Positions 22,199 to 49,320 of a DNA stretch of 64,000 nt are shown here, one piece after another; the first letter of the stretch is position 1, and each line of letters starts with the position of its first letter. The notes below the pieces were generated by a model. The model made no database searches. It was not told where the DNA came from and was given only the letters and a program-made list of their open reading frames with translations. The stretch is from positions 2,294,001-2,358,000 of the forward strand of contig NC_017586.1 in assembly GCF_000240165.1 (NCBI RefSeq). Direction: 5' to 3'. The position numbers and the translations under genes are program-made. This DNA comes from Streptantibioticus cattleyicolor NRRL 8057 = DSM 46488 (GTDB lineage Bacteria > Actinomycetota > Actinomycetes > Streptomycetales > Streptomycetaceae).

Positions 22199-22224
22199 GG
22201 AATAGCCGGGGGCCGCGCCGTGTT
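22199..22224 (+). promoter_or_regulatory. SigR-type promoter of the thioredoxin gene
   Basis: GGAAT (22199-22203), exactly 18 nt, then GTT (22222-22224): the Streptomyces SigR (thiol-oxidative stress sigma) consensus. It lies about 85 bp upstream of the thioredoxin start. Confidence 0.8.
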
Positions 22225-22310: not shown

Positions 22311-22673
22311 ATGAGCACGGTGGAGCTCACCAAGGAGAACTTCGACGAGGTCGTCTCGGGGAACGACTTCGTGCTGATCGATTTCTGGGCGTCCTGGTGC
22401 GGGCCGTGCCGGCAGTTCGGGCCGGTCTTCGAGAAGGCGTCGGAGCGCCACCCCGATCTGGTCTTCGCCAAGGTGAATACCGAGGCGCAGCGGGAGCTGG
22501 CGGCGGCGTTCGAGATCACCTCGATCCCCACGCTGATGGTCATCCGCGACCGGATCGCCGTCTACGGCCAGCCCGGCGCGCTCCCGGAGGCGGCGCTGGA
22601 GGACATCATCGGGCAGGCCCGCGGGCTGGACATGGACGAGGTGCGCGCCTCGGTGGCCGAACAGTCGCGGTAG
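22311..22673 (+). CDS. trxA: Thioredoxin
   Basis: A 120-residue thioredoxin with the F-W-A-S-W-C-G-P-C active site (Cys30, Cys33), Asp24 and the cis-proline loop I-T-S-I-P-T. It reduces cytosolic disulfides with thioredoxin reductase; no trxB is in the window. GGAGG stands before ATG 22311. The upstream SigR-type promoter implies induction by disulfide stress. It could be a trxC-like paralogue rather than the trxBA-encoded one. A GC hairpin follows. Confidence 0.93.
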   Translation: MSTVELTKENFDEVVSGNDFVLIDFWASWCGPCRQFGPVFEKASERHPDLVFAKVNTEAQRELAAAFEITSIPTLMVIRDRIAVYGQPGALPEAALEDIIGQARGLDMDEVRASVAEQSR

Positions 22674-42068: not shown

Positions 42069-42094
42069 GGAATTTCAAGTACAGGTAAAATGTT
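42069..42094 (+). promoter_or_regulatory. SigR-type promoter of the antiporter gene
   Basis: GGAAT (42069-42073), 18 nt, GTT (42092-42094), 55 bp upstream of the proposed CTG start. It matches the SigR consensus exactly. Confidence 0.7.
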
Positions 42095-42149: not shown

Positions 42150-43655
42150 CTGTCTGTCGACCGCCTCAACCAGATCCTGCTGGTCTCCGCAGCGGTACTG
42201 CTGGTCGCCGTAGCGGCGGTCAGGGTGTCGTCCCGAAGCGGCCTGCCGAGCCTGCTGATCTATCTCGGCCTCGGTGTCGTGATGGGTCAGGACGGCATCG
42301 GGGTGCGGTTCAACGACGCCCAGCTGACACAGGTGTTGGGGTACGCGGCGCTGGTGGTGATCCTCGCCGAGGGCGGTCTGGGCACCAAGTGGAAAGAGAT
42401 CAGACCGGCGGTGCCGGCCGCGGTGGCGCTCTCCACCGCGGGGGTGGCGATCAGCGTCGGGGTCACCGCCGCCGCCGCGCACTACCTGACGGGTCTCGAC
42501 TGGCGGCCGTCGCTCATCATCGGCGCGGTGGTCTCCTCCACGGACGCCGCCGCGGTCTTCTCGGTGCTGCGCAAGGTGCCGCTGCCGGCCCGGCTCAACG
42601 GCGTCCTGGAGGCCGAGTCCGGCTTCAACGACGCCCCGGTGGTGATCCTGGTCGTCGCCTTCAGCTCGGCCGGCCCGGTGGACCACTGGTACGTGCTGAT
42701 CGCCACGATCGCCGCGGAGCTGGCCATCGGCGCGGCGGTGGGCCTGGCCGTCGGCAAGCTGGGCGCGCTCGCGCTGCGCCATGTCGCGCTGCCCGCCTCC
42801 GGTCTGTATCCGATAGCGGTGATGGCGCTGGCGGTGCTGGCGTACGCCGGGGGCGCGCTGGCGCACGGCAGCGGCTTCCTCGCGGTCTACCTGGCGTCGC
42901 TGGTGCTGGGCAACGCCGCGCTGCCGCACCGGCCGGCCACCCGTGGCTTCGCCGAGGGGGTGGCGTGGCTGGCCCAGATCGGCATGTTCGTGCTGCTGGG
43001 GCTGCTGGTCAACCCGCGTGAGCTGGGCGAGGACCTGATCCCGGCGATCGTCATCGGGGTGGCGCTGACGCTGGTGGCCCGGCCGCTGTCGGTGACGGCG
43101 ACGCTGGCGCCGCTGCGGATCCGGTGGCGGGAGCAGGTGCTGCTGTCCTGGGCCGGGCTGCGCGGGGCGGTGCCGATCGTGCTGGCCACCATCCCGGTGG
43201 TGCACCAGGTGGCGGACAGCCACCGGATCTTCAACATCGTCTTCGTGCTGGTGATCGTCTCCACCCTGGTGCAGGGGCCCACCCTGCCCTGGCTCGCCAC
43301 CCGGCTGCGGCTGGGCACCCCGGAGGCCGCCGCCGACCTGGGCATAGAGTCCGCGCCGCTGGAACGGCTGCGCGGGCACCTGCTGTCGGTGTCGATACCG
43401 GAGCGCTCCCGGATGCACGGCGTGGAGGTGGGCGAGCTGCGGCTGCCGTCCGGCTCCGGGGTGACCCTGGTGGTGCGGGAGGGCAAGAGCTTCGTCCCCG
43501 GGCCGGAGACCGTGCTGCGGCGCGGTGACGAGCTGCTGGTGGTCGCCACCGACCAGGTCCGCGACGCGGCGGAACGGCGGCTGCGGGCGGTCGGCAGCGG
43601 CGGCAAGCTGGCCGGCTGGCTGGGCACCCCGGCGGAGGACCGGCGGCGGACGTGA
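42150..43655 (+). CDS. Cation/proton antiporter (CPA family, NhaP2-like, TrkA-C domain)
   Basis: A 501-residue protein with about 12 membrane helices and a C-terminal RCK/TrkA-C domain (about 400-485: L-S-V-S-I-P-E-R-S, G-V-T-L-V-V-R-E-G). S-S-T-D-A-A-A-V-F, G-F-N-D-A-P and the S-W-A-G-L-R-G-A-V-P-I-V-L-A motif are those of K+/H+ or Na+/H+ antiporters. A stop at 42132-42134 leaves CTG 42150 as the only start that includes the first helix (V-D-R-L-N-Q-I-L-L-V-S-A-A-V-L-L-V); GGAAGGACC stands 6 nt before it. GTG 42225 would remove that helix. Confidence 0.88.
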   Translation: MSVDRLNQILLVSAAVLLVAVAAVRVSSRSGLPSLLIYLGLGVVMGQDGIGVRFNDAQLTQVLGYAALVVILAEGGLGTKWKEIRPAVPAAVALSTAGVAISVGVTAAAAHYLTGLDWRPSLIIGAVVSSTDAAAVFSVLRKVPLPARLNGVLEAESGFNDAPVVILVVAFSSAGPVDHWYVLIATIAAELAIGAAVGLAVGKLGALALRHVALPASGLYPIAVMALAVLAYAGGALAHGSGFLAVYLASLVLGNAALPHRPATRGFAEGVAWLAQIGMFVLLGLLVNPRELGEDLIPAIVIGVALTLVARPLSVTATLAPLRIRWREQVLLSWAGLRGAVPIVLATIPVVHQVADSHRIFNIVFVLVIVSTLVQGPTLPWLATRLRLGTPEAAADLGIESAPLERLRGHLLSVSIPERSRMHGVEVGELRLPSGSGVTLVVREGKSFVPGPETVLRRGDELLVVATDQVRDAAERRLRAVGSGGKLAGWLGTPAEDRRRT

Positions 43656-45270: not shown

Positions 45271-45319
45271 GCGTGCGCCGGGCGGGCGAGTGATGCGGCT
45301 CTCGGTGGACTGACGGGCG

Positions 45320-45345
45320 GGAATGCTGCACTATGGAGCGTCGTT
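45320..45345 (+). promoter_or_regulatory. SigR-type promoter of the FmdB/Ruc-like gene
   Basis: GGAAT (45320-45324), exactly 18 nt, GTT (45343-45345). The -10 GTT overlaps the first bases of the CIRCE element. Confidence 0.75.
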
Positions 45346-45370
45346 AGCACTCATCGAGTGAGAGTGCCAG
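45344..45370. promoter_or_regulatory. CIRCE element (HrcA operator)
   Basis: TTAGCACTC (45344-45352), nine bases, GAGTGCCAG (45362-45370): seven of nine bases of the second arm match the CIRCE consensus GAGTGCTAA. It overlaps the transcription start region of the downstream gene, so HrcA should repress it until heat shock. Confidence 0.85.
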
Positions 45371-45379
45371 GAGGAGCAA

Positions 45380-45694
45380 GTGCCGACCTACCAGTACCAG
45401 TGCACCGAGTGCGGCGAGGGCCTCGAGGCGGTGCAGAAGTTCAGCGACGACGCGCTCACCGAGTGCCCGAGCTGCCAGGGCCGCCTGCGCAAGGTCTTCT
45501 CCGCGGTGGGTGTCGTCTTCAAGGGTTCCGGCTTCTACCGGACCGACAGCCGCGGTTCCTCGTCCAGCAGCAGCCCGGCCGCCAAGTCCGGCTCCTCGAA
45601 CGGCTCGGACGCCAAGTCCTCGTCCTCGTCGGGCTCGTCGTCCTCCGGGTCGTCGGGCTCGTCGTCGGCCGCGAGCACCAGCTCCGCCGCCTGA
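45380..45694 (+). CDS. FmdB/Ruc-like zinc ribbon protein with Ser-rich disordered tail
   Basis: 104 residues. M-P-T-Y-Q-Y-Q-C-T-E-C-G-E and C-P-S-C give a four-Cys zinc ribbon (FmdB family). From about residue 52 the sequence is almost only Ser, Gly, Ala and Lys and should be disordered. This is the architecture of the mycobacterial redox-regulated chaperone Ruc, whose gene is HrcA-controlled. Here a CIRCE element and a SigR promoter lie upstream, matching a heat- and thiol-stress role. Chaperone function is inferred. GTG 45380 has GGAGGAGC before it. Confidence 0.85.
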   Translation: MPTYQYQCTECGEGLEAVQKFSDDALTECPSCQGRLRKVFSAVGVVFKGSGFYRTDSRGSSSSSSPAAKSGSSNGSDAKSSSSSGSSSSGSSGSSSAASTSSAA

Positions 45695-48183: not shown

Positions 48184-49164
48184 TCAGGCGGCCTCGTAGG
48201 CGAGACCGGTGTCGCGCGCCATGCGCTTGAGCTCGACCAGGGCGTGCTTCTCGATCTGGCGGATGCGTTCCCGGGTGAGGCCGTGCTGCTTGCCGACCTC
48301 GGTGAGGGTGCGTTCCTTGCCGTCCTCCATGCCGTAGCGGGCACGGATGATGGAGGCGGTGCGGCCGTCGAGGCGGCCGATCAGCTCCTCCAGCTCCTCG
48401 CGGCGCAGCATCACCAGCACCGAGTCCTCCGGTGAGGCCGCCGAGGTGTCCTCGACCAGGTCGCCGAACTGGGTCTCGCCCTCGTCGTCCACCGCCATGT
48501 TGAGACTGACCGGGTCGCGGGCCCAGTCGAGGACGTCGACGACGCGCTCGGGGCTGGCGCCGAGTTCGGCGGCGATCTCCGCGGGCTCCGGGTCGCGTCC
48601 GTGCTCGCGGTTGAACTCGCGCTGCACCCGGCGGATGCGGCCCAGCTCCTCCACGAGGTGCACCGGCAGGCGGATGGTGCGCGACTGGTCGGCTATCGAC
48701 CGGGTGATCGCCTGGCGGATCCACCAGGTCGCGTAGGTGGAGAACTTGAAGCCCTTGGTGTAGTCGAACTTCTCCACCGCCCGGACCAGACCCGCGTTGC
48801 CCTCCTGGATCAGGTCGAGCAGCGGCAGGCCGCTGCGCGGGTAGCGCCGGGCGACGGCCACCACCAGGCGCAGGTTGGAGCGGATGAAGACGTCCTTGGC
48901 GCGCTCACCGGCGTCCACCAGGGCGCGCAGCTCCTCCTCGGTGGCCCCCTCGGCGCTCTTCCCCTCGTCCAGGAGGTGCTGGGCGTAGACCCCGGCCTCG
49001 ATGACCCGGGAGAGCTCGACCTCCTGCGCCGCGTCGAGGAGCGGGGTCCGCGCGATCTCGTCGAGGTACATGCCGACCAGATCGCGGTCGGCCACCTCGC
49101 CGCCGGTGGCGCGAACGCTGCTGGGCCCGTCGGACTGACGGCGGGCGACGGCACGGGTTGCCAT
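48184..49164 (-). CDS. hrdD: Group 2 RNA polymerase sigma factor HrdD
   Basis: A 326-residue sigma-70 protein. Region 1.2/2 D-L-V-G-M-Y-L-D-E-I-A-R-T-P-L-L, region 2.3-2.4 F-S-T-Y-A-T-W-W-I-R-Q-A-I-T-R-S-I-A-D-Q-S-R-T-I-R-L-P-V-H, region 4.2 T-L-T-E-V-G-K-Q-H-G-L-T-R-E-R-I-R-Q-I-E. It lacks the long N-terminal extension of HrdB and opens like HrdD, a nonessential principal-like factor. A SigR-type promoter upstream fits the known SigR control of hrdD. HrdA/HrdC assignment is less likely. Confidence 0.85.
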   Translation of the reverse strand: MATRAVARRQSDGPSSVRATGGEVADRDLVGMYLDEIARTPLLDAAQEVELSRVIEAGVYAQHLLDEGKSAEGATEEELRALVDAGERAKDVFIRSNLRLVVAVARRYPRSGLPLLDLIQEGNAGLVRAVEKFDYTKGFKFSTYATWWIRQAITRSIADQSRTIRLPVHLVEELGRIRRVQREFNREHGRDPEPAEIAAELGASPERVVDVLDWARDPVSLNMAVDDEGETQFGDLVEDTSAASPEDSVLVMLRREELEELIGRLDGRTASIIRARYGMEDGKERTLTEVGKQHGLTRERIRQIEKHALVELKRMARDTGLAYEAA

Positions 49165-49294: not shown

Positions 49295-49320
49295 AACGAC
49301 TGCAATCGGGACAGAATTCC
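49295..49320 (-). promoter_or_regulatory. SigR-type promoter of hrdD
   Basis: On the reverse strand GGAAT (49320-49316), 18 nt, GTT (49297-49295), about 130 bp upstream of the hrdD start. The rest of the 345-bp gap to the MarR gene shows no gene. Confidence 0.8.

Follow-up and report, generated by a model that had tools for sequence, protein, structure and literature searches.

How can signals from two different stresses be brought to bear on a single chaperone gene? The question is raised by the region in front of an fmdB/ruc-type gene in the window (the whole 64,000-nucleotide stretch of DNA analysed here), for which a SigR promoter overlapping a CIRCE element had been predicted, with thiol stress acting through SigR and heat through HrcA at one promoter. 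In Mycobacterium tuberculosis, HrcA has been reported to repress ruc and SigH to induce it in heat stress, and the SigH and HrcA sites overlap, suggesting competition between the two (Becker et al., 2020, PMC7448276). An hrcA mutant contains abundant Ruc at 37 C, and heat raises the level of Ruc further (PMC7448276). The SigH dependence of Rv0991c (ruc) has also been described elsewhere (Sharp et al., 2016, PMC4803200). The assignment of thiol stress to SigR and of heat to HrcA in the original prediction is a simplification, since mycobacterial SigH acts in heat stress too.

The gene and its product

The gene (45380..45694, + strand) starts with GTG and encodes 104 aa. Matches of its product to TIGR02605 (FmdB, 2.4e-21) and PF09723 (8.1e-16) bear out the four-Cys, Ruc-like zinc ribbon that had been expected, which is N-terminal (CxxC...CxxC; criterion ~50 aa). 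The tail is Ser-rich and hydrophilic as judged by eye, a Ruc tail being defined for this purpose as hydrophilic, 7-61 residues long and with no predicted structure. There is a single match to the fmdB family in the own genome at E <= 0.001. By analogy, the product may act like Ruc, a redox-activated chaperone. The gene is followed downstream by an MTA phosphorylase gene, mscL and, on the opposite strand, a sigma-70 family gene (48184-49164), which we take to be hrdD.

A SigR-type box that shares bases with CIRCE

A GGAAT-N18-GTT overlapping a CIRCE element upstream of the zinc-ribbon gene is indeed found at 45320-45370. The SigR-type -35, GGAAT (45320..45324, + strand), is separated by a spacer of 18 nt from the SigR-type -10, GTT (45343..45345, + strand), which agrees with the SigR consensus GGAAT-N18-19-GTT (PMC9205884). 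The two T's of this GTT are also the first two bases of CIRCE, TTAGCACTC-N9-GAGTGCCAG (45344..45370, no strand assigned), a candidate HrcA site made up of TTAGCACTC (45344-45352), the nine bases ATCGAGTGA (45353-45361) and GAGTGCCAG (45362-45370). The element has 0 mismatches over the 15 fixed positions searched, and departs from an inverted repeat of the TTAGCACTC-N9-GAGTGCTAA type in its final three bases, which are CAG, not TAA. A search of the window for TTAGCACTC-N9-GAGTGC with <=2 mismatches gave two matches, one place read from either strand, where the expectation is 0.08 per window. CIRCE probably lies near the start site of fmdB.

The ribosome-binding site AGGAGG (45369..45374, + strand), identified from its sequence, overlaps the last two CIRCE bases, and 9 bases separate the end of CIRCE from the GTG start codon. 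The original prediction was wrong in placing CIRCE 10 bp before the ribosome-binding site.

Conservation within the family

The fmdB gene is present in 198/200 genomes of the family. Ninety upstream regions were read, namely that of the own genome, those of the 29 best-scoring loci and 60 picked by hand among the matches listed, with the own genus (g1) represented by the own genome only. Parsing covered 89 of them; the other, L095, was missed by the start-codon pattern and has both CIRCE and GGAAT-N18-GTT. The CIRCE core is perfect in 89/89. In the same register as here, GGAAT-N18-GTT is found in 62 of the 89, GAAAT-N18-GTT in 19 and neither in 8, so that the GGAAT/GTT spacing, chosen beforehand as the refutation test, is exact in 62/89. 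All 19 GAAAT loci belong to genus g6, in which 7 further loci keep GGAAT; an alternative reading of GAAAT is GGAAA-N19, which differs at one position from the consensus GGAAT-N18-19-GTT (PMC9205884). The box-less loci comprise six from genera g2 and g5, outside which the GTT is present in 82/83 orthologues, together with L073 and L099. As the box is absent in 8/89 and reads GAAAT in 19/89, SigR input is not universal.

Among the best 80 of 590 named stretches, which are mostly from Streptomyces and partly from the same genomes as the family set, GGAAT-N18-GTT is exact in 73/80; the deviants include one locus with N19 (L276), three with GAAAT and one with AGAAT, and the Yinghuangia locus L230 is without a SigR box. 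A pattern search of 61 family genomes matched in 48, and the reversed-pattern control in 0/61. Matched strings ending in GTTAGCACTC, as at fmdB, occur in 45/61 genomes and 14/17 genera (strings counted by hand), and three genomes (G005, G021, G028) have pattern matches only outside fmdB. All three g13 genomes searched contain a second, similar GGAAT-N18-GTT, followed by GCACTC 8 bases on, at another place (G012:C1:319212, G025:C22:536471 and G034:C6:97308).

A column profile of 83 loci (80 distinct upstreams, with the six g2/g5 loci left out) shows conservation concentrated in four islands, TGGACT, GGAAT, CA..AT and TCGTTA+CIRCE, the spacers between them carrying less information. Information at GGAAT is 1.21-2.0 bits, and 0.18-1.39 bits in the preceding 8 columns. 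This comparison of upstream sequences indicates that a SigH/HrcA-type overlap has been retained across much of a large family of antibiotic producers. The combination of a SigR box and CIRCE before a Ruc-type gene, as predicted, is conserved in the family, with M. tuberculosis ruc as its precedent (PMC7448276, PMC4803200).

A candidate vegetative promoter nested with the SigR boxes

Interleaved with the SigR boxes is TGGACT-N17-CACTAT (45306-45334), which resembles a vegetative promoter. TGGACT (45306..45311, + strand) is a candidate HrdB-type -35, with columns that are 95-99% conserved between more variable flanks, and CACTAT (45329..45334, + strand; family consensus CAnnAT) is a candidate HrdB-type -10. 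The pattern TGGAC-N18/19-[CT]A..[AT]T, which was written after inspecting the sequences, is present in 87/89 family orthologues. Within 19 nt before the CIRCE core, [CT]A..AT is found in 89/89, and the A, A and T of CAnnAT are invariant in 80 distinct rows. HrdB promoters are described as having a conserved -11 A and -7 T (PMC6344877), and the spacing of A and T in CACTAT fits these positions, which themselves presuppose a start site. The vegetative start would then lie near 45341, three bases before CIRCE. CACTAT has C where a -10 usually has T.

Taken as a footprint, these bases suggest that fmdB may have two nested promoters, a vegetative (HrdB-type) one and that of SigR. The SigR box of the one-promoter view holds up, but the view itself was incomplete, as the second, vegetative-type promoter suggested by the footprint is the more widespread of the two in the family.

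Orthologues in other families

The fmdB gene was found in 291/296 of the class set, and 84 orthologues from 20 other families, the better-scoring among the matches listed, were read. CIRCE is present within 1 mismatch (GCAGTC accepted) in 75/84 and absent in 9, and the counts that follow rest on the 75 CIRCE-bearing orthologues. In two f16 loci, L187 and L189, CIRCE lies 171 and 103 bases upstream of fmdB, respectively, and the leader of L187 contains repeated units such as CGGACCTGGCCAAAGGACCAAGGCC.

In 17/75 orthologues, from 5/19 other families, CIRCE comes after a vegetative-type promoter with the same pattern, against 0.09 in shuffles, an expectation that, like the others from shuffles, ignores the relatedness of the genomes. 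The pattern is found in f17 (10/10), f13 (3/5), f33 (2/4), f32 (1/1) and f12 (1/1). It was not found in f15 (0/18), f4 (0/8), f14 (0/7), f16 (0/6) or f22 (0/5), and across the 75 orthologues it is absent from 14 of the 19 other families. No SigR box was found before CIRCE in any of the 10 f17 orthologues.

In 12/75, GGAA[TC]-N18-GTT is adjacent to CIRCE or overlaps it (shuffles 0.13; reversed control 0), a count that rests on an overlap rule widened after the sequences had been seen; under the first rule, by which the site must overlap the 27-bp CIRCE, the count was 4/75 (shuffles 0.09). These SigR-type boxes are found in f4 (8/8), f15 (2/18) and f16 (2/6), and, counted from the CIRCE core, they start at -29, -27, -33 or +6. 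Family f4 looks like the mycobacterial family, to judge from its protein (MPTYSY). In four of its loci the box starts at -29, compared with -27 here, in two it is likewise at -27, and in two it falls within the loop of CIRCE; the vegetative TGGAC pattern is conserved here but was not found in f4. In the two loci with the box in the loop, L200 and L201, the GGAAT is inside the loop (+6) and the GTT downstream of the operator, an order opposite to that in Streptomyces, and HrcA would therefore cover the -35. A missing SigR as the cause of box-less orthologues was rejected, as SigR-family sigma factors above cut-off were found in 34/34 genomes tried, 28/34 of them without a box at fmdB.

It is conceivable, if rather doubtful, that in actinobacteria an old HrcA-gated vegetative ruc promoter acquired a SigR/SigH promoter on more than one occasion, in different registers, with box starts that now lie 27, 29 or 33 bases upstream of the CIRCE core or within its loop. 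Independent gain of the box in several families is not asserted, because two f4 loci share the -27 register, and gain, loss and sliding are inseparable without a species tree. If such repeated acquisition is true, natural variants exist that differ in the promoter element covered by HrcA, and the placement of the box, not its presence, decides whether the heat and thiol inputs add up, compete or gate each other. The differing registers in other families could serve as ready-made variants for how the position of an operator sets its logic.

Proposed mechanism and alternative explanations

The region upstream of fmdB is probably the control region of a ruc orthologue in a relative of Streptomyces, with two nested promoters gated by HrcA/CIRCE. 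HrdB and SigR would use their respective boxes, and HrcA would block both. The vegetative promoter TGGACT-N17-CACTAT would initiate near 45341, as above, and the SigR promoter GGAAT-N18-GTT would have its start within the left arm of CIRCE. By occupying CIRCE, HrcA would cover the SigR -10 and both start regions, and so could block both promoters. Heat, or a shortage of free chaperonin, would lead to loss of HrcA activity, allowing the vegetative promoter to fire. Thiol oxidation would free SigR from RsrA, and SigR-polymerase would compete for or add to the same site. The output would be a zinc-ribbon protein that is a chaperone once oxidised, by analogy with its mycobacterial relative. With HrcA positioned over the starts of both promoters, heat and thiol stress would both feed one Ruc gene.

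An HrcA-repressed vegetative promoter, TGGACT-N17-CACTAT, might alternatively explain everything, with GGAAT...GTT arising as a side effect of other constraints. In the family, the vegetative elements are found more widely than the SigR boxes (87/89, with the -10 in 89/89), a similar promoter recurs before CIRCE in other families, including all ten f17 orthologues, where no SigR box accompanies it, and both T's of the GTT are CIRCE bases regardless. We consider this explanation unlikely, however, as it offers no reason for keeping a GGAAT in the vegetative spacer, yet conservation reaches 97-100% at four of the five GGAAT positions (80 distinct upstreams). Likewise, 95-99% conservation is seen at the G of GTT and at the TC before it, which are not part of CIRCE. 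In L247, from the best 80 of 590 named loci, one extra base before CIRCE shifts the GTT and leaves N18 intact, and the same box recurs beside CIRCE elsewhere at other registers.

A single HrcA-repressed SigR promoter, with CACTAT and TGGACT not forming a promoter at all, is more improbable still. It would accord with the perfect SigR spacing, with CACTAT being a poor -10 and with the inputs described in M. tuberculosis, which are SigH and HrcA (PMC7448276). TGGACT and CA..AT, however, match the SigR boxes in strength of conservation, and both occur in the six g2/g5 loci, which have no SigR box. L073 and L099, which lack the box as well, carry TACTAT and TACCAT as -10, though TGGACT is lost. 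In addition, M. tuberculosis ruc has a second start 19 nt upstream (PMC7448276). SigR acting alone is thus weakened by the interleaved vegetative footprint. Finally, a functionless chance adjacency of SigR box and CIRCE is hardly credible, for although GGAAT-N18-GTT is found 62 times in the genome, random placement gives 0.001 expected overlaps on the gene strand where 1 is seen, and the string is retained at the fmdB register in the 45/61 family genomes and 14/17 genera noted above.

Two nested promoters under HrcA, if correct, would provide a concrete model for one operator gating two sigma factors.

Regulators and sites in the own genome

A SigR-type sigma factor is encoded at C2:4369368 (356 bits, family cut-off 251.55) and RsrA at C2:4370006 (96.3 bits, cut-off 62.5), the two matches being 80 bases apart, and HrcA is also encoded (339 bits, cut-off 197.2). 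A GGAAT-N18-GTT begins 321 bp before the sigR match, as expected if sigR is autoregulated.

The genome has five perfect GCACTC-N9-GAGTGC cores, which precede only hrcA-dnaJ, groEL2, groES-groEL1 (two copies) and fmdB, the groE and dnaJ genes being recognised by eye in the translations. Allowing 1 mismatch gives 20 places, compared with 16 for the reversed pattern; so close to the control level, only perfect CIRCE cores are informative, and the counts speak neither for nor against additional weak HrcA sites. These matches indicate that the HrcA regulon of Streptomyces relatives gains a further member, a Ruc-type protein. Among the four loci with perfect CIRCE, a SigR-type box was found at fmdB only (130 bp examined around CIRCE). 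On both strands of the genome there are 62 GGAAT-N18-GTT sites, compared with 5 for the reversed pattern. Six of the 62 are one repeated sequence, the 26-mer GGAATGGCCCCCCTTCTCCCGAAGTT, whose six identical copies (e.g. G000 C2:800518) inflate motif counts and are probably, at a guess, in rRNA operons.

Comparison with known systems

The architecture is already known in kind from M. tuberculosis ruc (Rv0991c), where, like here, a SigR-orthologue box and an HrcA site overlap just upstream of the same type of gene. Two start sites have been reported there; those proposed here are predictions from sequence. Streptomyces HrcA is reported to control groES/EL1 and groEL2 (PMC2687793), and the promoters of these genes thus share their repressor with fmdB, as well as having the same CIRCE core in the own genome. 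There, groES has two perfect CIRCE copies and groEL2 one perfect copy and one with 1 mismatch, and, unlike at fmdB, no SigR-type box was found at either within the 130 bp examined. At M. tuberculosis clpB a heat-shock repressor site overlaps a SigH promoter, as at fmdB, but the repressor is HspR rather than HrcA acting at CIRCE (PMC4803200).

Among titles and the starts of abstracts, with few subscription journals covered, we found no paper on a SigR/CIRCE overlap in Streptomyces. The available text of PMC3489674, PMC10012870 and PMC2631018 contains nothing on the fmdB promoter, and the S. coelicolor orthologue was not found via SCO numbers near hrdD (SCO3202) in the available text of PMC3902916, PMC9205884, PMC4921905 and PMC6344877. 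What is new here is the presence and conservation of the architecture in this family, together with the putative interleaved vegetative promoter.

Other SigR-type boxes in the window

The window contains 5 GGAAT-N18-GTT boxes, against 0.29 expected. One (22199-22224, + strand) is situated ~87 bp upstream of a thioredoxin gene (22311-22673; TIGR01068), and is likely to be its SigR promoter. Another (49295-49320, - strand) is found ~131 bp upstream of the ATG of the sigma-70 family gene at 48184-49164. A reported SigR target is hrdD (PMC9205884), at which one ChIP-chip study found no SigR binding, as told in PMC3902916. A further box (42069-42094, + strand) lies ~131 bp upstream of a Na+/H+ exchanger ORF (42225-43655).
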